From Thioalkalivibrio nitratireducens DSM 14787 (lineage in GTDB: Bacteria > Pseudomonadota > Gammaproteobacteria > Ectothiorhodospirales > Ectothiorhodospiraceae), in the NCBI RefSeq assembly GCF_000321415.2, contig NC_019902.2:930001-994000 (forward strand): DNA of 64,000 nt. The letters are read 5' to 3'. The notes beneath the pieces were generated by a model. It had not been told where the DNA came from and ran no database searches. It saw only the letters and a list, made by a program, of their open reading frames with translations. This document shows positions 1 through 38,101 of the stretch, piece after piece (position 1 is the first letter of the stretch; each line of letters starts with the position of its first letter). A program made the translations under genes and the position numbers.

Positions 1-42
1 CCCGAAGGCCCGGTGACGGCGCCCGAAAGGCGGATCCTGGGC

Positions 43-945
43 TTACTCGGAGTCCCGCTCCCGTACAAGCGCGGGCGGTGCGGCGCGCGAGGATACACTG
101 AGCGCGGTCACCGTGACGAGGATGAGAGCCATCCCGACCGTTTGAACGAAAGCCAGGCTTTCATGGAGCAGCGCGACACCGAACAGCGTTGCTGTGACGG
201 GTTCGATCATGGCCACGATGGAGGCCACGGCCGGCGCCGTATGCCTGAGCCCGTTGATGTAGAAAGCGAACGACAAGCCCGCTCCGAACACGCCAAGCGC
301 TGCGAACAGCGGCCAGTCCGGTGTGCTGAGTGCGGCCACCATCTGTGTGTTATCCCCGGGCAACATCAGCAGGATGACGAGCACCCCGAAGGCAATCGAA
401 AGCACCGCCTGCGGACTGCCGTGCGAACCGGCGTACTTGAAGCCGAAGATGAACACCGCGTAGGACAGTCCGGCCAGCAGGCCCGCCCCGGCGCCAATGA
501 GAGTGACGCCGCCCGCGTCGGTATCGTAGATCTGGGTGAGCAGCACAATGCCGACCATCACCACCGCAATCGCCACCAGCTTGAGCGCGGTGGGGGTTTC
601 CAGCTTCAGGGCGAAGGATACGAGGTAGACAAACACCGGGGCGCAGTACATCAGCGTCGCCGCCACCGCCACGCTGCCGTGCGCGATGCTCACGAAATAG
701 AACGCGAAGTTGCCCGCTACCCCCAGACCGGCCACGGCCGACCAGATCCACAGCCGACCACTCGCCAGCCCGCTACCGCGCGGCTGCCAGGCGAGCCAGG
801 CAAGCACGAACAGGAGGCCGATTGCGCCCCGGTAGAACGACACCACGAACGCGTCCCAGCCGTCGGCCATCAGGATGCCGCCGATCCCGCCTGACAACCC
901 CCAGAAGAACGCCGCCAGCACCACGAATCCCACACCCAAGCCCAT
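43..945 (-). CDS. EamA/DMT-family membrane transporter
   Basis: About 300 residues of an integral inner-membrane drug/metabolite transporter of the EamA (RhaT/DMT) type. The hydrophobic pattern fits ten helices in two EamA repeats; the first begins GLGVGFVVLAAFFWGLSGG and the second is near LAGLSYAVFIFGFKYAG. Substrate cannot be told from sequence; family members export amino acids, purines or other small metabolites. The reading frame extends upstream to 1113, but the ATG at 945 is preferred. It has a GGAAG-type ribosome site just upstream, and the upstream 56 residues are polar and unlike the family. The gene stands alone and is divergent from the broken reductase that follows. Confidence 0.85.
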   Translation of the reverse strand: MGLGVGFVVLAAFFWGLSGGIGGILMADGWDAFVVSFYRGAIGLLFVLAWLAWQPRGSGLASGRLWIWSAVAGLGVAGNFAFYFVSIAHGSVAVAATLMYCAPVFVYLVSFALKLETPTALKLVAIAVVMVGIVLLTQIYDTDAGGVTLIGAGAGLLAGLSYAVFIFGFKYAGSHGSPQAVLSIAFGVLVILLMLPGDNTQMVAALSTPDWPLFAALGVFGAGLSFAFYINGLRHTAPAVASIVAMIEPVTATLFGVALLHESLAFVQTVGMALILVTVTALSVSSRAAPPALVRERDSE

Positions 946-1133
946 CAATGGCTTCCCATTTCGCTGTATGTCGCCACTTGCGGCGACTTGATTGATAATC
1001 AGGACGCTGTTTCGGGTGCAGCAACCAATGCTCGGTGCATCCCGGAAGCCCGCGAGTGCCACCGGTTTCCCGAAGCACGAAACTTTGGGTCGGGCGCCGT
1101 GCGGTTTTACCACGGCGTCTGAGATTCCCCGCG

Positions 1134-1430
1134 ATGAAGACGATCTACTATACCGCGAGCAGCCTCGACGGCTTTCTGGCGACCGAAGACGACTCGCTTG
1201 CCTGGCTCTTCGCGCTCGGAGCTTCGCTCGACGGCGAACAAGGCGGCGATTCGGGTTACGCCACGTTCATCGCCGGCATCAATGGAAGCCGCGGAGGTGA
1301 GCCATCGAATGGAGCCGCTATGCGTATCTCCCGGCGACCGGGCTTTGTCCAACCAATGGGGCAGACCATGGTTCGTTCCGCTCTCGCGAACCAACTGCCT
1401 TGGCACGGCCCGCCACGACGGACGATGAAT
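1134..1430 (+). pseudogene. Broken RibD C-terminal / dihydrofolate-reductase-family gene
   Basis: The first ~54 codons (MKTIYYTASSLDGFLATEDD, then SLAWLFALG and YATFIAGIN) match the N-terminus of small RibD_C/DHFR-like reductases. After about 1295 the similarity in this frame stops. The other two forward frames then carry short pieces that could be remnants of the rest of the fold, such as an EWSRYAYLP stretch and a RPWFVPLSR stretch. Intact members have about 180-200 residues. I read this as a frameshifted, decayed gene. The N-terminal match is clear; extension of the remnant to about 1430 is inference. Confidence 0.6.
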
Positions 1431-1904
1431 GAAGCGCAGGAAAAGAGGCCGTCGGCAGTCAACCGCTGTTCGCAGGCCGGGCTTGCCGTGAGAGCAGGGG
1501 GTGGCACCAGCACCGTGTGACGCATTCCGGCGCGCGCTTCGCCGTACAGTTCGCCCGAGCCGGGTGCCCGTGCTTGTTTCGCCCGAACCTGGTTCGCTCG
1601 GCGACGCGTCTCCCGATAGCGACCCTTGCCGCACGAGCCAGTCGAGGAAGGCTGCGGAGCCTTCGCTCTCCGAGCGAGCGCTTCTTGGTGTCGCACGTCC
1701 GACCGTCGAACCTCTTGAGAAACAAACGTGCCCACGGTGTAAAATCAATCATTTGCGAACAAGGCAACATCGTCAGGGCCCAGCGTACATGCTGGCACGA
1801 ACGCGGCCAAGTCTGTGTAAGTTGTCGTCAACGATCTAGACTAGTATTCGAAATCAAGCGCAGCGAACGGTTGGGGCGGCGCTGCCCGCCCGGGGCCTTC
1901 GGCT
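1431..1904. other. Intergenic stretch without a supported gene
   Basis: About 470 bases between the broken reductase and the CoA-dehydratase-like pair. Open frames exist on both strands, but they are Arg/Ser/Pro-rich and show no recognisable domain. The AT-richer part around 1740-1855 probably carries the promoter of the downstream operon, but I could not assign -35 and -10 boxes with acceptable spacing. Confidence 0.5.
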
Positions 1905-3548
1905 ATGACGAGCACTACAGCGCACTTCAAGCGGCCGACGGAGAATGCCTTCACCCGTGATGAGCGCCAACGGGTGACGCTGCTGTTCAACGGTCTCACG
2001 ACAGCTCACGATCGGCTGATGGCCGCCGGCCTGAACGGACTCGGCTATCGGGCCCGGCCGTTGCGGGTGCCGGAAAAGATGGACTTCCAGACCGGCAAGG
2101 AGTACGGCAACAACGGCCAGTGCAACCCCACTTATTTCACCGTGGGCAATCTGATCAACGAGCTGGTGCGCCTGCGCGACGAGGAGGGGCTCCCCACCGA
2201 GCGCATCCTCGCCGACCACGCCTTCGTTACCGTGGGCACCTGCGGGCCGTGCCGCTTCGGCATGGACGAGGCCGAGTATCGGCTCGCCCTGCGCAACGCC
2301 GGCTTCGACGGCTTCCGGGTTCTGATCTTCGACCAGACCGGTGCCGGCGAGCAGCGCACTGCCGGCGATGGCTTCGAGGTCAATCTGCAGCTCTTCACCA
2401 CGCTGCTCGACGCTGTCTTCATGGGTGACCTGCTAAATGCGCTGTTCTTTCACCTGCGCCCCTACGCCATCGAATCGGAGGCCGTGGCACGGGCGCGGGA
2501 GCGCTGCCTGGCCGTGTGCGAGGACGCGCTGCGGGAGCGGGACCACCGGGTTCGCCCCGGCCTCCCGGCGCGCGCCCTGCGTGCGCTGCTGCCGATCGAT
2601 CGCGCGGGGGACATCCAGAGGCTGCTCGAGCGCGTGCGCGGCGACGCCCACCTGGCGCCGCTGCGCCGCTGCCGGGAGATCGTCGCCTCCGAGGTGGAGG
2701 TGGACTACATCCGCCCGAAACCGGTGGTGAAGGTCACCGGGGAATTCTGGGCGCAGACCACCGAGGGCGACGGCAACTTCCAGATGTTCGATTTCCTGGA
2801 GCGGGAGGGGGCGGAGGTCCTGGTAGAGCCGGTGGCCACCTGGATCGATTACCTGCTGCATCAGCGCCGTGTCGCATTGGGCGACCGGGCCGGTCTGGCG
2901 GACGGAGGGCCCCTGGCGCGCCTGGGCCACCGCATGCGCAGCGCCCGCGACCGCCTGTTGGTGAGCGCCGGCGAGCGGCTGCTGGCGCGGGAGTACCACC
3001 GCATGCGTGAGGCGCTGGGCGGGACCGTGCAGCCCCTGGCAGACCAGCTGGAGATGCAGCGGGTGGGCCACCCCTTCTACAACATCCGCGCCAGCGGCGG
3101 CGAGGGCTACCTGGAGGTGGCCAAGAACATCTACTACTTCAGCCGCTCCCTCGCACACATGACGCTGTCGCTCAAGCCCTTCGGCTGCATGCCCTCCACC
3201 CAGTCCGATGGCGCCCAGGCGGCGGTGATGGCCCGTTACCCGGAGCTCAACTACCTGCCGGTGGAGACCTCCGGCGAGGGCAGCATCAATGCCTACTCCC
3301 GGGTGCAGATGTCGCTGGGAGAGGCGAAGTCGCAATGCAAACGCGAGTTCGAGGAGGCCGTAACGCGCGCTGGCCGATCGCTGGAGTCCATCCGCGCCTA
3401 TGTGGCGGTGCGCCCGGCGCTGCGTGATCCTATCCAGCGCGTGCCCCGTTACCCTGGGGTGATCGGTCGCGCGGCGAACTTCGTGCTCCATGTGGGGGCG
3501 CTGATGGATCGGGATGGGGTTCCGCGCCGGGAGGCGACGACGGCATGA
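1905..3548 (+). CDS. 2-hydroxyacyl-CoA dehydratase D-component-like protein
   Basis: 547 residues, related to the C-terminal module of the very large activase-related proteins (HgdB/HGD-D-like family). Recognisable pieces are the cysteine motif GTCGPCRFGMDEAEYRLALR around residues 112-131, the NNGQCNPTYF stretch near 70, and the C-terminal block FGCMPSTQSDGAQAAV. The Cys residues are candidate iron-sulfur ligands, as in 2-hydroxyacyl-CoA dehydratases. It is followed by its activase partner with an ATGA overlap, so the two are translationally coupled. Classical dehydratases have two distinct subunits (HgdA/HgdB). Only one is present here, so the substrate is unknown and ordinary 2-hydroxyglutaryl-CoA dehydration should not be assumed. 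Confidence 0.8.
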   Translation: MTSTTAHFKRPTENAFTRDERQRVTLLFNGLTTAHDRLMAAGLNGLGYRARPLRVPEKMDFQTGKEYGNNGQCNPTYFTVGNLINELVRLRDEEGLPTERILADHAFVTVGTCGPCRFGMDEAEYRLALRNAGFDGFRVLIFDQTGAGEQRTAGDGFEVNLQLFTTLLDAVFMGDLLNALFFHLRPYAIESEAVARARERCLAVCEDALRERDHRVRPGLPARALRALLPIDRAGDIQRLLERVRGDAHLAPLRRCREIVASEVEVDYIRPKPVVKVTGEFWAQTTEGDGNFQMFDFLEREGAEVLVEPVATWIDYLLHQRRVALGDRAGLADGGPLARLGHRMRSARDRLLVSAGERLLAREYHRMREALGGTVQPLADQLEMQRVGHPFYNIRASGGEGYLEVAKNIYYFSRSLAHMTLSLKPFGCMPSTQSDGAQAAVMARYPELNYLPVETSGEGSINAYSRVQMSLGEAKSQCKREFEEAVTRAGRSLESIRAYVAVRPALRDPIQRVPRYPGVIGRAANFVLHVGALMDRDGVPRREATTA

Positions 3549-6500
3549 GCTGTTGCGGCGCAGAAGCATGCGATCATGATTCGCGCCCGGCGGAGGGCGA
3601 CACCTTGCCGGTACGCTTCATCGCTCGCCCCGGCGCCGAGCGCCCTGTGCCGCCCAACGAGCCCTTTCGGCCCACGGAGGCGTACCCCGAGGGGCTGATG
3701 ATCGGCCTCGATGTGGGCTCCACCACGGTGAAGGCGCTGGTAGTGGACCCGGCGCGGGATGCCACCCTGTGGCAGGACTACCGGCGCCACCAGACCCGCC
3801 AGGCGGAGACCGTGCTCGACTTTCTGCAGGCCATCGAGGCCGCCTTCCCCGACACGCCGCGCACGGCCCTTCGGCTCTTCGCCACCGGCTCCGGTGCCGG
3901 CGCGCTGGTGGACCTGATCGGTGCCAAGTTCGTGCAGGAGGTCAACGCCGTCTCCCTGGCGGTGGAGGCGCTGTACCCCGAGGTGCAGAGCGTGGTGGAG
4001 CTGGGCGGACAGGACGCCAAGATCATCATCTACAAGGATCTCGGCCAGCGCGGCAAGAAGAAGATCCCCTCAATGAACGATAAGTGTGCCGGCGGCACCG
4101 GCGCCGTCATCGACAAAATCCGCGCCAAGCTCGACATCCCGCCGGAGGTTCTGCCGGGGATGCCCTACCGCGGCCAAACCCTCCATCCGGTGGCCGGGAA
4201 GTGCGGGGTGTTCGCCGAGACCGACATCAACTCCCTGCAGAAGCAGGGGGTGCCGGCCGGCGACCTGATGGCGTCGCTCTACGAATCCATCATCCAGCAG
4301 AACCTCTCGGTGCTTGCCCGCGGCCACACCCTGCGTCCCTCGGTATTGCTGTTGGGCGGTCCCAACACCTTCTTGACTGGCCTGCAGGAGTGCTGGCGGC
4401 ACAACCTGAAGGCGCTGTGGCAGGAGCGCAACGTCGCCCTGCCCGACCCGGAGGGCGATCCCGACGATTACATCATCACTCCGGAGAATGCCGAGTACTT
4501 TGCCGCCCTCGGCGCCACCCTGTTCGGCCGGCAGGAGGTGGCGGACGACGCGGACATCGGCCGCTACCACGGTACCGATCTGCTGTGCTGGCAGCTCGAG
4601 CACGGCCGCCGGGCAGCGCGTGGCGAGGGCGGTCGACGCGGCGGTCTGGCTGCCGGCACCGAGGAGCTGGACGCCTTCCTGCACGAGTTCCGGCCCGAAC
4701 CCTGGCAGCCGGCTACCTTCCGGCCCGGCCAGATGGTGGAGGCGTTTCTTGGCATCGACGGCGGCTCCACCTCCACCAAGGGCGTGCTGATGGACACCGA
4801 CGGCCAGGTGCTGGCGAAGGCGTACCGCCTCTCCCAGGGCAACCCCATCGCCGACACGGTGGAGATCATCGATCGCCTCCACCGCCAGGTGGCCGACGCC
4901 GGTGCGGCACTGAAGATCCTTGGCACCGGCACCACCGGCTACGCCAAGGATATCCTGCAGGGCGTGCTGAAGGCCGACACCGCGCTGGTGGAGACGGTAG
5001 CCCACACCCAGGCGTGCCTGCACCACTACGCCGATACGGATGTAGTGGTGGATGTGGGGGGTCAGGACATCAAGCTTATCTTCCTCAAGGACGGCCGCGT
5101 GCGCGACTTCAAGCTCAACACCCAGTGCTCCGCCGGCAACGGTTACTTTCTGCAGGCCACCGGCGGCGGCTTCGGCTTCCCCGTGGAGGAGTACGCCGAT
5201 ATTGCCTTCAGCGCCGACGCCATGCCGGAGTTCGGCTACGGTTGCGCGGTATTCATGCAGTCGGACATCGTCGATTTCCAGCGCCGCGGCTGGCAGGCCA
5301 ACGAGATCATGGCCGGGCTGGCCGCCGTGCTACCCAAGAACATCTGGCACTACGTGGCGCAGATCCCCAACCCCGCCTTGCTCGGGCGCAAGTTCGTGTT
5401 GCAGGGTGGCACCCAGCGCAACCTGGCGGCGGTGAAGGCGCAGGTGGACTTCCTCCGGGAGCGCTTTCGCAAGCAGGGTGCCGAGTGCGAGATCCACGTC
5501 CACCGCCACTGCGGGGAGTCCGGCGCCATCGGTGCCGCCCTGGAGGCGCGGCGGCTATGGCGCGAGGGGCGCAGCACCGAGTTCATCGGGCTCGAACGCA
5601 GCCGCGAGATCGACTACACCGCCCGCCGGGACGAATCCACCCGCTGCAACTTCTGCAAGAACCAGTGCCTGCGCACCTTCATCGATGTGGTCACGGGCCG
5701 CGGCCGGGAGCGGCTCATCGTCGCCACCTGCGAAAAGGGCGAGGTGGAGGACGTGGAGCACATGCGCCGCATCAAGGCGGCGATGGATGCCGCCAAGGAG
5801 CGCGCGCCCAACTTCGTGGAGATTGCTGCACGCCAGATGTTCCGCCAGGTGAAGGTGGACGATGTGGCCGACCCGCTGCCGTGTCCGTCACTGCTCCACC
5901 CCTTGCGGCGCCGGCAACTGGCGCGCCGGGCGGCCATGGAGCGCCGCGAGGTCGTGCGCATCGGGATCCCGCGGGTGCTCAATCTCTACTCCCACGCCCC
6001 CTTCTTCATCGGCTACTTCACCAGCCTGGGGGTGCCTTTCCGCAATCTGGTCTTCTCCGACTACACGGACGCCGAGCTCTACAAGCAGGGAGCCAAGCGC
6101 GGCGCCATCGACCCCTGCTACCCCAGCAAGTTGGGCATCGCCCACGTGCACAACCTGCTGGTGCGCAAGCACCGCCGCAACCGGCCGCTCACACACATTT
6201 TCTTCCCCATGGTCCAGAGCTTTCCCAGCCACCTGCACGGGATACAGGCCTCCAGCGCGTGCCCCACCGCCGTCGCGACCGCCGAGGCCACCCACGCCGC
6301 ATTCGTAAAGGAGGGCGACCTGTTCCGGGAACGGGGTATCCGCTTCAAGAAGACCCTGCTCAATCTGGACGAGCCGGCCCTGTGCGCCCGGCAGATGGTA
6401 TGGGACTGGGGCGAGGAACTGGGCATCACCGAAGAGGAGTCTCGCCGCGCAGTGGACCAGGGGCTAGGGGCGATGGAGGACCAGTACGTCGACCTGCGCC

Positions 6501-12304: not shown

Positions 12305-12394
12305 TATCGCAAGAATGTCTGTGCCAGGGGAACGTCGATTACGACCAGTGTGGATGTCGCCGGGTGGCTGGGCCCGGACGAGGGCTCCTCGCGA
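12305..12394 (+). pseudogene. Remnant of a GGDEF (diguanylate cyclase) domain
   Basis: The bases translate to TTSVDVAGWLGPDEGS, nearly the same as TASVGVAGWLGPDDGS in the intact diguanylate cyclase at 14286-15272. The nucleotide match to about 15083-15170 is visible by eye over some 85 bases. Only the late part of the domain survives; the left edge is approximate and the right edge is the MITE insertion. A short stretch after the MITE (about 12717-12750) also resembles the bases following the intact cyclase (about 15320-15353). This suggests an old duplication of the whole gene end, later deleted. Confidence 0.7.
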
Positions 12395-12674
12395 CCTGAT
12401 TATCACGGAAGCTCCGCAAGCTGGACTGGGCCATCTTCGAAACCAGCGTCATCGCGAGGAGCGAAGCCTTTAGCCGCGAGCGCAGCGTGGCGGGACGTGG
12501 CGATCCAGAGGGCGATGGTCCCCCCCGCGCCGCCTGGATTATTCGCTGCGCTCACCCTGCGGGCCAGCCTTCGGCTGTTCAATGCGCTGCGCGCATTAGT
12601 GCCGCGCTTCGCTCGCAATGACGACCGACGCGGAGAGGTATCGCACTGGCTGAGGAGGTTTCGTGATAATCAGG
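12395..12674. mobile_element. MITE copy 1 (non-autonomous inverted-repeat element)
   Basis: A 280-base element bounded by perfect 13-bp terminal inverted repeats, CCTGATTATCACG and CGTGATAATCAGG. It is flanked on both sides by the 8-bp direct repeat CCTCGCGA (12387-12394 and 12675-12682), a clean target-site duplication. It encodes no transposase. The interior is itself a long imperfect palindrome (CGTCATCGCGAGGAGCGAAG pairing with CTTCGCTCGCAATGACG). Compared with the 193-base copy at 37909-38101, in opposite orientation, it is almost identical except for two internal insertions of about 29 and 60 bases. It interrupts the GGDEF remnant. Confidence 0.88.
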
Positions 12675-12916
12675 CCTCGCGATGACGAATGAATCAGCGC
12701 CCCTTAGGTAATCGCCACGACTGCTTCGTGTCCATCGATCTTCCAAGCTGGTGTTGTGGCGGCGCCGATGCTCGCGTTGGTCGATGGCGCGACCGGACGC
12801 ACACGAAGAATTGCACAGCGCTCTGGCTTCGGCCCGATCGCGTGGGTTCTGCTAGTATTCGGCGGAGTGTTGTAGGCGAGTGATTCTGACGTGCCCTGCG
12901 TGAGGCAGTATGCGCC

Positions 12917-13213
12917 ATGTTCGTTGCAATGAGCCGGTTTCGCGTGATTGCGGGCCAGGAAGGAATGGTTCGTGAGGCCTTCCGGCAACGACCGAGGCTG
13001 GTGGACGCACACCCGGGCTTCATTCGCCTTGAAGTGCTCACCCCCGATCAGCGGACTAACGAGTTCTGGTTGATCACCTTCTGGCGTGACCGCGAGAGCT
13101 TCGAGCGCTGGCACGCCGACCATCTGCGTGAGTCGCATGCATGGATGCCGAGGGGGCTGAAACTCGAGCCCGGCAGCCGCAGCCTGACGTATATGGAACT
13201 GGTCGCCGAGTGA
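12917..13213 (+). CDS. Antibiotic biosynthesis monooxygenase (ABM) domain protein
   Basis: 98 residues forming a single ABM/dimeric alpha-beta barrel domain: MFVAMSRFRVIAGQEGMVREAF, then HPGFIRLEVL, then NEFWLITFWRDRESFERWHADHLRESH. Family members include small cofactor-free monooxygenases and heme-degrading enzymes (IsdG-like); which applies here is unclear. The stop codon overlaps a possible GTG start of the B12-binding gene, so it is the first gene of a three-gene operon with that protein and a diguanylate cyclase. Confidence 0.85.
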   Translation: MFVAMSRFRVIAGQEGMVREAFRQRPRLVDAHPGFIRLEVLTPDQRTNEFWLITFWRDRESFERWHADHLRESHAWMPRGLKLEPGSRSLTYMELVAE

Positions 13214-13221
13214 GTGGCCGA

Positions 13222-14289
13222 ATGGACACACTTCCCTCCGGAGTCGAGCGGGCGATCGAAAACCTTCGTGCCGAAGCACTGGATCACGGCACGCGGTACA
13301 TCTACGACCGGATTGGCGAGCACCTCGCACCGTGGGGCGAGGCGGGGCGAGTACGTTGCCGCGCGGACCTGAACTGGCACCTGGACTTTCTCCTGGGTGC
13401 TGTCGCGGTGGGGGATCCGGGCCCGTTTGTGAATTACCTTTCGTGGCTGGTCGATCTGATGCGTAGCTACGGGGTTCCCGGTGATTCCGTCGAGCTCTCC
13501 GTCGAGGGGCTGGCCTCCGTGCTCAGGAAGCGGCTGAGCAGCGAGCAGTGGGCTGAAGTGGCGCCCATCCTTGCCGCAGGGATACAGTCACTGGCGAGCG
13601 GCGGGGTGGCATCGGCGGATGCAGCGGGCGGTATTGCGCCGACACACTCGACCGACAGCGATGTGGCTCCCGCGACGCGGCAGCAACTGATGTCCGCACT
13701 GGTGGCCGGAGACGCGGTTCGAGCGTCCGGGATCGTATCCGGAGTCACCCGGCAATGTGGTTACCTTCGGATGGCGGAAGGGCTGGTGCAGCCGGTGATG
13801 AGCGCCATTGGTGAGATGTGGCAACGGCGCGAGATCAGTGTCGCCCAGGAGCACCTGGCGAGCGCAGTCATTCAGAAGCTTCTGGTGCGGGAGTTCGTGA
13901 ACGCGCCGTTCGCGGATCCGGTGCCACGCTCCGTGTTGCTGGCCTGTGTGGCCAGCAACTACCACCAACTGGGCTTGCGCATCCTCGCGGATGCCTTCGA
14001 GCTCAAGGGCTGGTCCGTAGAGTTTCTCGGCGGGGATACGCCGACGGGAGACCTGGTGCGGCATGTGGAGAGTACCCGCCCCGATCTGGTGGCGTTGTCG
14101 TTGTCGCTTGGACGGCAGATTCCGATACTGAAGGACGTGGTCGCCGGGATTCGGGAGCGACTGGGTTCGGGCCCTCCCCGTATCATTGCCGGGGGACCGG
14201 GGCTTACCGGTCTCGGGTTCTTGTGTCCGCGTCTGGGTCTGGACGGGTGCTACCCGAGCGTTGCGTCGGTTCCGGATCTCGGGCCGTGA
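13222..14289 (+). CDS. B12-binding regulator with photoreceptor-type W-x9-EH motif
   Basis: 355 residues. The N-terminal ~150 residues are helical with no family I recognise. A four-helix cobalamin cap follows, with W200-x9-E210-H211 (MWQRREISVAQEH). Then comes a Rossmann-type B12-binding domain with NYH248QLG in place of DxHxxG. The W-x9-EH signature is what distinguishes CarH/LitR/AerR-type photoreceptors and relatives from methyltransferases. There is no MerR DNA-binding domain, so the output is probably protein-protein. The downstream diguanylate cyclase overlaps by GTGA and is the obvious partner. The start is ATG 13222; a GTG at 13210 overlapping the previous stop is an alternative. Confidence 0.8.
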   Translation: MDTLPSGVERAIENLRAEALDHGTRYIYDRIGEHLAPWGEAGRVRCRADLNWHLDFLLGAVAVGDPGPFVNYLSWLVDLMRSYGVPGDSVELSVEGLASVLRKRLSSEQWAEVAPILAAGIQSLASGGVASADAAGGIAPTHSTDSDVAPATRQQLMSALVAGDAVRASGIVSGVTRQCGYLRMAEGLVQPVMSAIGEMWQRREISVAQEHLASAVIQKLLVREFVNAPFADPVPRSVLLACVASNYHQLGLRILADAFELKGWSVEFLGGDTPTGDLVRHVESTRPDLVALSLSLGRQIPILKDVVAGIRERLGSGPPRIIAGGPGLTGLGFLCPRLGLDGCYPSVASVPDLGP

Positions 14290-15272
14290 CGATCGGTAGG
14301 CTCGTGGGTGCGATTACACCGCGCGCGCAGGTCATGCGCTTCCTCAACGATTCCATCAGTACATTGTTGGCCTTGTTCGAGGCCGACGGCACGCTCGTCG
14401 AGGCGAACCGCGGGTTCCGGCACCTGCTGGAAAGCATGCCCGACGGCAGGGATCCGGCGGTGGTGTTCGTGAATCCGGGACTCGCGGAGCTGAACGGCAT
14501 GGCCGACGAGGCCGGGACCGGTCTGGTGTATCGGGGACTGATGACCGTGGGCAACGTGGACTGTGACTCGGACACCTGGCTGGGAACGGTGTATCGAGTG
14601 GGGTACCAGTTACTGGTGGCATGTGAGCGGGATATCGCAGCGGACCGGAACCTCCGGGTGGAGTTGTTCCGTCTCACTGATGAATATGCGGCGAAGGAAC
14701 GCATGCTCGCGAAGGCCCATCGTGAACTGGCGCGGCGCACTGCGGAGGTGGAACGCCTGACGTTCACCGATTCGCTGACCGACCTCCCCAATCGTCGGGC
14801 ATTCGACCAGGAACTGGAACGCGAGATTCTGCGTTCGGCCCGGTATGGTGAACCTCTGTCGCTGCTGATCGTCGATCTGGACCACTTCAAGCGGGTCAAC
14901 GACCGTTTCGGCCATGCTGTCGGTGATGATGTGCTCAGGTCCGTGGCTGCATCGCTGCGCGCCGAAGCACGAGGGGTGGACACGGTGGCCCGCTGGGGCG
15001 GTGAGGAATTCGCGGTTTTGGTACCGGCCACTGGAATGGATTCCGCCAGGCGCCTGGCAGAACGAATTCGCCGACGGATCGGGAAAATGTCGAGGCCAGA
15101 GGGCGTTGCACCGATTACCGCCAGCGTGGGAGTTGCCGGATGGCTGGGGCCGGATGACGGGTCCGCTGCGCTGTTCAAGCGCGCAGATCGTGCGCTCTAC
15201 AAGGCGAAGCACGACGGTCGTAATCGGATACGGGTTGCGGACGAAGGTCCGGAATGTCAGGCCGGATCGTGA
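14286..15272 (+). CDS. Diguanylate cyclase (PAS-like region plus GGDEF)
   Basis: 328 residues starting at a GTG that overlaps the preceding stop (GTGA). A PAS-like segment (LLALFEADGTLVEANRGFRHLLE) lies near the N-terminus. A heptad-like helical linker around residues 118-158 leads into GGDEF. The active site reads GGEEF (RWGGEEFAVLVP), and the product-inhibition I-site RxxD is present as RGVD five residues before it. All visible residues are consistent with an active, feedback-inhibited c-di-GMP synthase. There is no membrane segment, so it is cytosolic and probably receives its signal from the co-encoded B12 protein. Confidence 0.9.
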   Translation: MTIGRLVGAITPRAQVMRFLNDSISTLLALFEADGTLVEANRGFRHLLESMPDGRDPAVVFVNPGLAELNGMADEAGTGLVYRGLMTVGNVDCDSDTWLGTVYRVGYQLLVACERDIAADRNLRVELFRLTDEYAAKERMLAKAHRELARRTAEVERLTFTDSLTDLPNRRAFDQELEREILRSARYGEPLSLLIVDLDHFKRVNDRFGHAVGDDVLRSVAASLRAEARGVDTVARWGGEEFAVLVPATGMDSARRLAERIRRRIGKMSRPEGVAPITASVGVAGWLGPDDGSAALFKRADRALYKAKHDGRNRIRVADEGPECQAGS

Positions 15273-15467
15273 GGCGAGGATTCCCGTGCCGGAGGGAGGC
15301 TCCCTTGAACCCGGTTCAGGTAAGCGCCAAGAGTGCTTCGTATCCATTCGTGTCGAAGCCGTTCATCAGACCCGGCCCACAGGCTCCGCCGCATGTCGAG
15401 TTCGCCTTGGAACTGGCGACGCCGTGCTTGCGGCTGCAGGCCATTTGCTCCTCGGGCTGACGCGCGT

Positions 15468-18659: not shown

Positions 18660-19442
18660 TCAGGTCGCCGGGGAATCGGTACGGGTTCCCGCGAGTACAC
18701 CGCGCTGCAGCCAGTGCCGCAGCAGTTCCTCGGCGCTGCGCAGGAGCTCTTCGCCGGGTGCAAGGTCGAAGTCGGCGGCGACCCGGTGCACCAGTTCGGC
18801 TCCCGGCGCGGGATCGTTCTGCACGTACCAGAGGATGCGCGCGCTCAATGGGTTGAGCTCGATGAACCCGGTACGGAAGTCGCGGTCGCGGAACACCACC
18901 AGGTATGTGGGGTGTTCGCCGGGGCTGGCCGGGACGAAGTCGGGGCCGATCCGTTGGACCGGGTATTCGTAGGCCAGCAAGCGCGCGGCGGTAGCGAGTA
19001 CCGGAACCTCGGTGAAGGGATCGCCCAGAGGATCAATCGTGCTGCCGGTGGCATGGTCGGGGTCATCTTCGTGCTGCGCCACGACCACCTCGGCGCGTTC
19101 GTAATGGGCGAGTTCGGCGAGAAAAGGAAAATCGTCTTCGCGCGCCGTTCGTTCCGTGCTCAGGTATTGAAGAAACTCCTCGGCCAGACGCGGGAAGTAC
19201 GGTGTGTGGCATCCGTGTTCCCGATAGAAGTCGCGAGTCAGCCGTGCCCAGCGTTCCGAACCGTGCAGGCTGCGCAACACCGGGTACGCCCGTCCGAGCA
19301 GATCCTCGATGTTGTTGATGAACAGCCGCCGGTAGATCGCCAGGCGGCGCTCCTCGATACCCGCGGGTGGGGCATGGCGTTCGGGGTCGCGCAGATGAGC
19401 CGCGAATCGGCGCTGCACTTCGCGAAAGTCCAGTTCAGGCAC
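18660..19442 (-). CDS. hvfC: HvfC/BufC-type RiPP maturation partner (DUF2063)
   Basis: About 260 residues. The N-terminal DUF2063 domain reads [18 protein letters not shown], then [28 protein letters not shown], followed by a second domain with a winged-helix-like C-terminus. In HvfA/bufferin systems the DUF2063 protein partners the DUF692 enzyme and binds the precursor. The GTG start at 19442 is preferred because it has GGAGG at good spacing and begins exactly at the family N-terminus. It overlaps the stop of the DUF692 gene by eight bases, as expected of a stoichiometric complex. Confidence 0.88.
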
Positions 19443-20295
19443 GGCGGCGTTCCTCCATGACCGCTTCGCTTGCCTCGAGCATTGCGCGCACGCGGGCGAC
19501 TTCGGCGAGCAGGTCCTGAAGCGGAGGGAAGTTGAAGTCGCGCTCGAGCAGGGTCGGCACCGGTCCCAGGCGCCGGTAGACCTCGTCCAGCAATGCCCAG
19601 ACGTCGGTGCAGATGTCGGCCCCGTGGGTGTCGACGCGCAGGTCGGGTGCTTCTTCGTGGTGCCCGGCGACATGCAGGTAGCGCACGCGGTCCAGCGGCA
19701 CGCGGTCGAGGAAATCCAGCGGATCGTAGCGATGGTTGATCGCGTTGACGACGATGTTGTTCACGTCCAGTAGCAGGCCGCAGTCGGCCGTCTCGATGAC
19801 CGCAGTCACGAACTCCGCCTCGCTCATCTCCGCCCCGGGCTGCGCGTAGTAGGAGACGTTTTCCAGCGCAATGCGCATGCCCAGAAGATCCTGCACGACG
19901 CCGACCCGCTCGGCGACATGGCGTACCGCGTCCTCGGTGAACGGGATCGGCATCAGGTCGTACAGATGGCCGAACTCGTCGCCGCAGGCGGACAGATGCT
20001 CGGTGTAGTCGCGGATCCCGTGGGTGTCCAGAAAACTGCGCAGGTCCCGCAAGAAGTCCCGGTCCAGTGGCCGCGGCCCGCCGATATCCAACGATAGCCC
20101 GTGGCAGACGAAGGGTTTGGCTTCGGTCCACTCGCGGAAGGTTCGCCCGAGGGCGCCACCGAGATGCATCCAGTTCTCGGGGGCGACTTCGAGGAAATCG
20201 ACCCGGTCGCGGGATCCGGGCGCCTGCGCGAAGGGGCTCAGCAGAGACCGCCGCAGACCCAGCCCCGCGCCACGCACTTCCGACCGGTGATTCAT
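19435..20295 (-). CDS. hvfB: HvfB/BufB-type DUF692 multinuclear-iron RiPP-modifying enzyme
   Basis: 286 residues of the DUF692 TIM-barrel family: [105 protein letters not shown] and DTHG. The scattered His/Asp/Glu residues match the iron ligands of MbnB-like enzymes that oxidatively modify precursor cysteines. The ATG at 20295 has GGAG nine bases upstream. The frame continues upstream through the hairpin repeats, but that part is repeat DNA and not protein. Confidence 0.9.
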
Positions 20296-20386
20296 AGGCG
20301 TTGACTCCATAAGTAACTGATTCCAAGCCGTCGTCGTGAGTGCCACCGTGATGGTTAAGCCGGCAATTGCCGTATCCTCAGATATG

Positions 20387-20551
20387 CCATCGCGGGGGCC
20401 GAAGGCCCGTGGCCCGTCATCGCGAGGGCCGAAGGCCCGTGGCCCGTCATCGCGAGGGCCGAAGGCCCGTGGCCCGTCATCGCGAGGGCCGAAGGCCCGT
20501 GGCGATCCAGACTCCGCCTGGATCGCCACGTCACTGCGTGCCTCGCGATGA
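20387..20551. repeat. 30-bp tandem repeats and REP-like hairpins inside the RiPP operon
   Basis: A 30-base unit containing the hairpin GGGCCGAAGGCCC is repeated three and a half times (about 20389-20500). It is followed by a perfect 12-bp hairpin, GTGGCGATCCAG-ACTCCGC-CTGGATCGCCAC (20499-20529), and a closing CTCGCGATGACG. The units share the CATCGCGAG/CTCGCGATGACG core with the interiors of both MITE copies but lack their terminal repeats. The array separates the RiPP precursor gene from the DUF692 and DUF2063 genes, so it would sit in the middle of the operon mRNA. Confidence 0.85.
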
Positions 20552-20600
20552 CGATAGGGCGCGACCATCACACGATGGCGGCCCTGATGATCACGTCGTC

Positions 20601-20912
20601 CTAGCCGCCGCAACGTCCTTCGCCGCACTTGCCTTCCGTGTCCTTGTCATCGCCATTGTCGTCCGAGGCACCGCCGCAGCGACCTTCGCCGCAGCTACCC
20701 TCGGTTTCCTTCTCGCCGGAAGCGCCGCCGCAGGTGCCTTCGCCGCAGCTGCCCTGAGCGAGCTTCTGCAGCGCCGTGGAGGACTGGCTGACCTGATAGC
20801 CCTGGCCGAGGTCGGTCGCGGCAAACAGCGGCGTGCTGCCCATTGCGAGGCCGACGGCGGCGGTGCCGATGGTGGCGGCGAGGGTCTTGCGATTGAAGAG
20901 ATGGTCTTTCAT
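20601..20912 (-). CDS. hvfA: HvfA/bufferin-type copper-binding RiPP precursor
   Basis: 103 residues. A signal peptide ([21 protein letters not shown]) is followed by a short core and three C-terminal modules: [22 protein letters not shown] and [11 protein letters not shown], separated by acidic, low-complexity linkers. EGKCGEGKCG is the hallmark of HvfA, whose cysteines are converted by HvfB/HvfC to copper-binding groups and which is exported to the periplasm through its signal peptide. Six Cys are available for modification. A strong ribosome site (AAAGGAG) precedes the ATG, consistent with high expression of the precursor. Confidence 0.9.
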
Positions 20913-37908: not shown

Positions 37909-38101
37909 CCTGATTATCACGACACCTCCTCAGCCAGCGCGATACCTCTCCGCGTCGGTCGTCATTGCGAGCGAAGCGCGGCAATCCAGGCGGCGCGGGG
38001 GCGGCATCGCCCTCTGGATCGCCACGTCGCTTCGCTCCTCGCGATGACGCTGGTTTCGAAGATGGCCCAGTCCAGCTTGCGGAGCTTCCGTGATAATCAG
38101 G
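37909..38101. mobile_element. MITE copy 2
   Basis: A 193-base element with terminal inverted repeats CCTGATTATCACG and CGTGATAATCAGG. It is flanked by a perfect 8-bp target duplication AGTTGTTA (37901-37908 and 38102-38109). Its reverse complement aligns almost base for base with copy 1 at 12395-12674; copy 1 carries two additional internal blocks. The interior palindrome (CGTCATTGCGAGCGAAGCGC and its partner GCTTCGCTCCTCGCGATGACG) could fold the transcript into a long hairpin. It sits between hsdM and the next gene of the island. Confidence 0.9.

Follow-up and report, generated by a model that had tools for sequence, protein, structure and literature searches.

The window, a 64,000-nucleotide stretch of DNA from Thioalkalivibrio nitratireducens DSM 14787, carries a compact set of three plus-strand genes. 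The first (12917–13213) encodes a 98-residue, IsdG/HmuQ-like ABM-domain protein, as judged from Pfam, NCBIfam and a clade alignment, in which S6, W65 and H74 stand at the positions of the Asn-Trp-His triad. The second (13222–14289) encodes a 355-residue protein in which a globin is followed by a C-terminal cobalamin-binding domain, identified from matches to the photocobilin SasPcob, an AlphaFold2 model and fold matches. The third (14286–15272) encodes a 328-residue diguanylate cyclase composed of a PAS-like domain, a coiled coil and a GGDEF domain according to Pfam, AlphaFold2 and fold matches. The tight three-gene set described in the initial annotation is borne out in its coordinates, strands and Pfam domains. 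Its claim that all three genes overlap applies to only one junction: the B12 protein and cyclase genes share 4 nt (GTGA), whereas the ABM and B12 protein genes lie 8 nt apart when the latter starts at ATG 13222, the start codon that matches the residue numbering of the initial annotation. The cyclase may start at GTG 14286 or ATG 14334 and ends at 15272. Codon-position GC is similar across the three genes, and a consensus search found no sigma-70-like promoter for the operon. Because the arrangement is seen again in many distantly related genomes, it is not a chance one.

Upstream of the operon, sequence comparison also identifies a plus-strand relic derived from the 3' part of the cyclase gene (12336–12388; 53 nt, 79% identity to 15112–15164), and a 30-nt segment at 12706–12735 is 87% identical to the downstream flank of the cyclase at 15318–15347. 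Together these relics suggest a past tandem duplication of the operon end. Inserted in the relic is a MITE-like element of ∼300 nt (12386–12685) with terminal inverted repeats at 12386–12418 and 12651–12685, and a related sequence lies at 37909–38101. Elsewhere in the window, a tandem RAFGPRDDG-coding repeat (20400–20628) lies in the N-terminal part of a minus-strand ORF (19435–20628); these repeats are possibly non-coding and located ahead of the true gene start.

Domains and chromophore pockets of the B12 protein

Photocobilins bind both AdoCbl and biliverdin, and either chromophore can drive cleavage of the Co–C bond (PMC10979010). The B12 protein of the window has B12-binding_2 (residues 153–221) and B12-binding (237–331) domains above the Pfam cut-off and a sub-threshold Phycobilisome match at residues 43–123. 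Its best matches among solved structures are the photocobilins 8J2X, 8J2W and 8J2Y, with two matches each: the C-terminal part (147–347 for SasPcob) aligns with the photocobilin cobalamin domain and the N-terminal part (13–102) aligns with the bilin globin, the second 8J2Y match being weak alone. The AlphaFold2 model (mean pLDDT 89.8, pTM 0.87) agrees with this assignment. Fold comparison matches residues 146–355 of the model to 8J2W (Z 24.5, rmsd 2.1, 204 residues) and residues 3–125 to allophycocyanin 1ALL (Z 17.3, rmsd 1.8, 123 residues), and the globin also matches allophycocyanin alpha-B in sequence with an E-value of 0.001. The protein is therefore divided into a phycobiliprotein-like, bilin-binding globin (residues 3–125; 13228–13596) and a cobalamin-binding domain made up of a four-helix bundle and a Rossmann fold (residues 147–355; 13660–14286). 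This order is opposite to that of 8J2W, 8J2X and 8J2Y, where the cobalamin domain comes first; photocobilins with a C-terminal cobalamin domain have been described, and none of them has been crystallised (PMC10979010).

The initial annotation had likened this protein to CarH-type receptors, though devoid of a DNA-binding domain. The motif spacing and the missing DNA-binding domain both stand, but the CarH-type identity does not. The NCBIfam CarH model scores 63 bits against a cut-off of 400, and the N-terminus, where CarH and LitR have a MerR-type DNA-binding domain, is a globin. We abandoned the CarH-type reading because of this phycobiliprotein-like domain. Sequence and model together indicate that the B12 protein is a photocobilin, a B12 and bilin photoreceptor, with predicted binding of both chromophores.

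The residues singled out in the initial annotation, W200-x9-E210-H211 and N246-Y247-H248-Q-L-G, are exactly as claimed. W200 (13819–13821) is the adenosyl-pocket Trp, corresponding to SasPcob W61; E210-H211 (13849–13854) correspond to E71-H72; and H248 (13963–13965), the lower axial ligand of cobalt, corresponds to H108. Conservation of the W/EH residues in orthologues beside a cyclase had been set in advance as the test of the reading, and none of W200, E210, H211 and H248 varies across the 34 loci compared, every cyclase-adjacent locus included. In the globin, alignment places W75 (13444–13446) at the position of SasPcob Trp296, which lies against bilin ring D (PMC10979010), and this Trp is kept in all 33 loci that possess the globin domain. 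D49 (13366–13368) is located at the position of the biliverdin-contact residue Asp270 of SasPcob, as seen in the alignment and the family comparison. An Asp is not strictly required here because the weakly binding AbPcob has a His (PMC10979010).

Two further positions bear on the cobalamin pocket. The E/D-x-H motif, which was reported for two crystallised photocobilins and is not a definition of the family, reads N246-Y247-H248 in the window, and other two-domain relatives also have Asn at its first position. Because the axial His is kept and membership rests on the two domains, N-x-H does not exclude the protein from the photocobilins. In CarH, the pocket Trp is followed by a His, and the light state is bis-His ligated. 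The residue after W200 is a Gln, as in SasPcob, and a CarH-like bis-His light state is therefore not expected; by analogy, the water-ligated light state of SasPcob would be the better guess.

The ABM companion and its possible part in bilin supply

The ABM domain of the first gene product scores 56 bits with Pfam and 44 bits with the NCBIfam HmuQ model, below its cut-off of 130, and the closest solved chain is 1IUJ (E 1e-11). An ABM gene lies beside a photocobilin gene in 11 loci (L026, L028, L047, L048, L085, L086, L088, L089, L100, L101 and the window), the intervening gap ranging from −14 to 130 nt, and it precedes the photocobilin on the same strand everywhere except in L028, where the two are divergent. 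The ABM protein of L047 is fused to a PAS domain. In L088 (233–1599) and L089 (3268–6116), the globin and the cobalamin domain of the photocobilin are encoded by two genes, which occur in both orders; ABM stands ahead of the pair and the PAS-like partner is retained.

A profile of this ABM clade gave 11 matches above 100 bits in 24 photocobilin-bearing genomes, all 11 beside a photocobilin; the next-best matches score no more than 77 bits and are located elsewhere. Among 369 genomes of the class, four proteins exceed 100 bits, again all beside photocobilins, and the next scores 82 bits. We dropped the idea of a chance neighbour because strong members of the clade occur solely beside photocobilins. 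The Asn-Trp-His triad is defining and required for IsdG-type enzymes, and the catalytic Asn is needed for heme degradation in those tested (PMC5557675). Photocobilin-linked ABMs, S6 of the window protein included, have Ser at the Asn position with the exception of L089, which has Asn, and the linked ABM of L047 lacks the triad His. In contrast, all of the weaker, unlinked ABM matches examined are Asn-Trp-His. An ordinary IsdG/HmuQ heme oxygenase was not accepted for the window ABM for these reasons. Sequence comparisons thus identify the linked ABMs as a distinct IsdG/HmuQ-like clade and as specific companions of photocobilin-type photoreceptors; because the clade is distinct and mostly has Ser for Asn, its chemistry cannot be read from IsdG.

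The presence of ABM tracks the bilin pocket. The pocket Asp is found in 10 of 11 photocobilins with a linked ABM and in 7 of 22 without one (L049, L051, three Azospirillum and two Skermanella proteins), an association with a Fisher p of 0.002 by locus and 0.02 by genus-like group when shared ancestry is ignored. Photocobilins lacking the Asp have E, N, T, H or Q instead. A canonical heme oxygenase, surveyed as PF01126, is missing from 22 of the 24 photocobilin genomes, including that of the window, and 9 of the 11 genomes with an ABM cluster likewise lack it. The genome of the window has no second ABM of either the linked or the unlinked N-W-H group at an E-value of 1e-5, and it has a cobalamin adenosyltransferase gene. 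The Asp linkage, the scarcity of PF01126 and the lack of a second ABM make the window protein the strongest candidate at hand for supplying or handling the bilin, and we infer that it may make, modify or deliver the bilin. Since most linked ABMs carry Ser in place of the catalytic Asn, and biliverdin could also come by other routes such as HugZ/HutZ or radical enzymes, this function is a putative one. The initial annotation had left the role of the ABM protein open; the clade linkage now establishes it as a companion of photocobilins, with bilin supply as its candidate function.

The same Ser substitution, together with the ABM–PAS fusion of L047, would also suit an ABM that leaves the bilin alone and serves as a third signalling protein, binding heme, a quinone or some other small ligand and acting on the PAS partner. 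We regard this reading as doubtful because it accounts neither for the association of ABM with the bilin Asp nor for the lack of any other recognised heme oxygenase in most ABM-cluster genomes.

Within the same family, most relatives linked to a cyclase (L027 and L029–L034) lack both ABM and the Asp, having N, T or E in its place. The bilin may therefore be less important where the output is a cyclase, and the window is unusual in combining a bilin-competent photocobilin with a cyclase. The partners of the other ABM-linked photocobilins are mostly kinases. A bolder proposal, which we offer tentatively and consider somewhat less probable than not, is that the linked ABM clade constitutes a new kind of chromophore enzyme, neither a canonical heme oxygenase nor IsdG, and that, with a photocobilin and an exchangeable PAS-effector, either cyclase or kinase, these ABMs make up a complete light-sensing cassette that is portable.

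The cyclase partner and the proposed light-sensing unit

The GGDEF domain of the cyclase scores 161 bits with Pfam. Both the GG(D/E)EF active site and the RxxD I-site of diguanylate cyclases are present (14970–15011), as GGEEF (residues 238–242; 14997–15011) and RGVD (residues 229–232; 14970–14981). The soluble GGEEF cyclase with an intact I-site proposed in the initial annotation is thus retained, but not as a bare GGDEF enzyme. The AlphaFold2 model (mean pLDDT 84, pTM 0.55) has a PAS-like domain at residues 1–116 and a long helix at 117–160 ahead of GGDEF, and the relative placement of the domains is uncertain given the pTM. Its nearest folds are PAS-GGDEF-EAL, phytochrome-activated, WspR/SiaD and LOV-activated cyclases. 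The PAS-like sensor domain (14319–14633) has related N-termini in the partners of L089, L020 and L088 and, more weakly, in others; the relation of these other partners comes from a small iterative profile whose scores are meaningful in the first round alone.

A PAS-like/GGDEF cyclase is encoded downstream of the photocobilin in L029–L034 and just upstream in L027, and the two genes also overlap in L030 and L032–L034. A histidine kinase follows the photocobilin in L026, L028, L048, L086, L089, L100, L049 and L095, and by similarity in L101. Kinases in the cyclase slot have a PAS-like or small sensor region, and the N-terminus of the L089 kinase is the same PAS-like domain as that of the window cyclase. 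The closest relative, L020, is a partial locus and one of three from a contig scan, with 45% identity over the cobalamin domain; its partner has a PAS-like domain and a coil and lacks GGDEF.

Several other arrangements were observed. In L023–L025, the photocobilin is divergent from a PAS-PAS-GGDEF-EAL gene (Pfam, L023) and has Glu rather than Asp in the bilin pocket. L026 (G015, a member of the window's genus) has genes for ABM, photocobilin, histidine kinase, KaiB, KaiC and a receiver-PAS-kinase on one strand at 3–6424, a row that could possibly provide light input to a Kai clock-like system. Azospirillum plasmids encode photocobilins with the bilin Asp in A. brasilense (L096 and L097) and A. 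thermophilum (L095, beside a histidine kinase), and these carriers are named, culturable organisms suited to tests.

We consider it probable that the window encodes a light-sensing unit of the photocobilin type, whose cyclase is a separate protein, together with an ABM protein that would make, modify or deliver the bilin. In the dark, the photocobilin would be a head-to-tail dimer, with AdoCbl bound in its cobalamin domain via H248 and, beside the corrin, a linear tetrapyrrole bound in the N-terminal globin. Absorption of green light by AdoCbl or of red light by the bilin would cleave the Co–C bond, upon which the W200/E210/H211 adenosyl pocket would rearrange and the dimer interface open. The altered photocobilin would then act on the co-translated cyclase by contact with its PAS-like domain and coiled coil, changing c-di-GMP synthesis, with the I-site providing feedback inhibition. 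By analogy with one fused protein, which supplies the sign, light would likely produce more c-di-GMP. The gene set, both sensor domains, the key residues, the PAS-like/coiled-coil/GGDEF layout and the recurrence of the cluster come from this analysis, whereas the photochemistry and the activation of a cyclase in trans come from the literature on SasPcob and AbDPcob, in which the SasPcob dimer opens in light and standalone photocobilins alter cyclase activity in trans in a light-dependent manner (PMC10979010). Control of c-di-GMP by light or AdoCbl through protein contact, as suggested initially, remains the best reading given the conservation of W200, E210, H211 and H248; we infer the contact between photocobilin and cyclase, and the sensor is a photocobilin rather than a CarH-type protein.

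The light-responsive residues are also those that bind AdoCbl, and AdoCbl binding alone brings the cyclase activity of AbDPcob below that of the apo form (PMC10979010). The sensor could accordingly report AdoCbl supply, the apo and AdoCbl-bound proteins setting cyclase activity and photolysis being incidental. We find this improbable: the window photocobilin keeps a bilin pocket with its key Asp, which is sensible mainly for light capture, and the signatures listed for cobalamin domains that respond to light include GxxW and EH (PMC11796333). It is similarly unlikely that photocobilin and cyclase are merely co-expressed and that the photocobilin acts on something else, as might be supposed from L050, L052, L053, L098 and L099, where no GGDEF or kinase gene adjoins the photocobilin, because the genes overlap in the window and in L030 and L032–L034, the slot holds kinases or cyclases rather than random genes, and light-dependent control of a cyclase in trans is documented.

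Relation to known photoreceptors and ABM enzymes

Photocobilins were described in 2024, and their physiology, partners and bilin source are little known; the family itself, its C-terminal-cobalamin form and its control of cyclases are already known. In the window, a naturally standalone photocobilin shares an operon with its own cyclase, and the ABM protein beside it is a candidate, open to testing, for the chromophore step that is missing where genomes lack a canonical heme oxygenase. Should ABM prove to make or tailor the bilin, it would represent a new enzyme group in bilin biology and the cluster would offer a compact red/green optogenetic cassette. In the literature searched, the 2022 photoglobin paper excepted, nothing joins ABM or IsdG to photocobilins or describes an ABM–PAS fusion or a linkage of ABM to the bilin Asp.

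The closest known systems are SasPcob and AbDPcob (Zhang et al. 2024, PMC10979010), which share with the window the cobalamin domain and bilin globin, W-x9-EH, the axial His, the Asp and Trp of the bilin pocket and control over a GGDEF cyclase that extends to regulation in trans. The window differs from them in having the globin first, a separate PAS-like/GGDEF cyclase, a dedicated ABM gene and N-x-H. The photoglobins and BBAG-2 bilin globins (Rockwell et al. 2023, PMC10151467) are likewise phycobiliprotein-like globins tied to B12-binding proteins and bilin synthesis genes, and the separate globin and B12 genes of L088 and L089 resemble the photoglobin arrangement. However, the enzyme associated with them is a heme oxygenase (HO) rather than an ABM, and the main text of that paper makes no mention of ABM, IsdG or monooxygenase.

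CarH and LitR have the cobalamin-binding domain and W-x9-EH in common with the window protein, which lacks their DNA-binding domain, has the additional globin and carries Gln instead of His after the pocket Trp. The linked ABMs resemble IsdG/HmuQ/MhuD-type ABM heme oxygenases in their ABM domain and in the Trp and His of the triad, and differ in the Ser that replaces Asn, a C-terminal P-x-G-L-K-L motif and their exclusive linkage to photocobilins. Finally, phytochrome- and LOV-activated diguanylate cyclases also couple light to c-di-GMP through a coiled-coil linker ahead of GGDEF, whereas in the window sensing and cyclase activity reside in two different proteins, and the predicted chromophores are AdoCbl and a globin-bound bilin.
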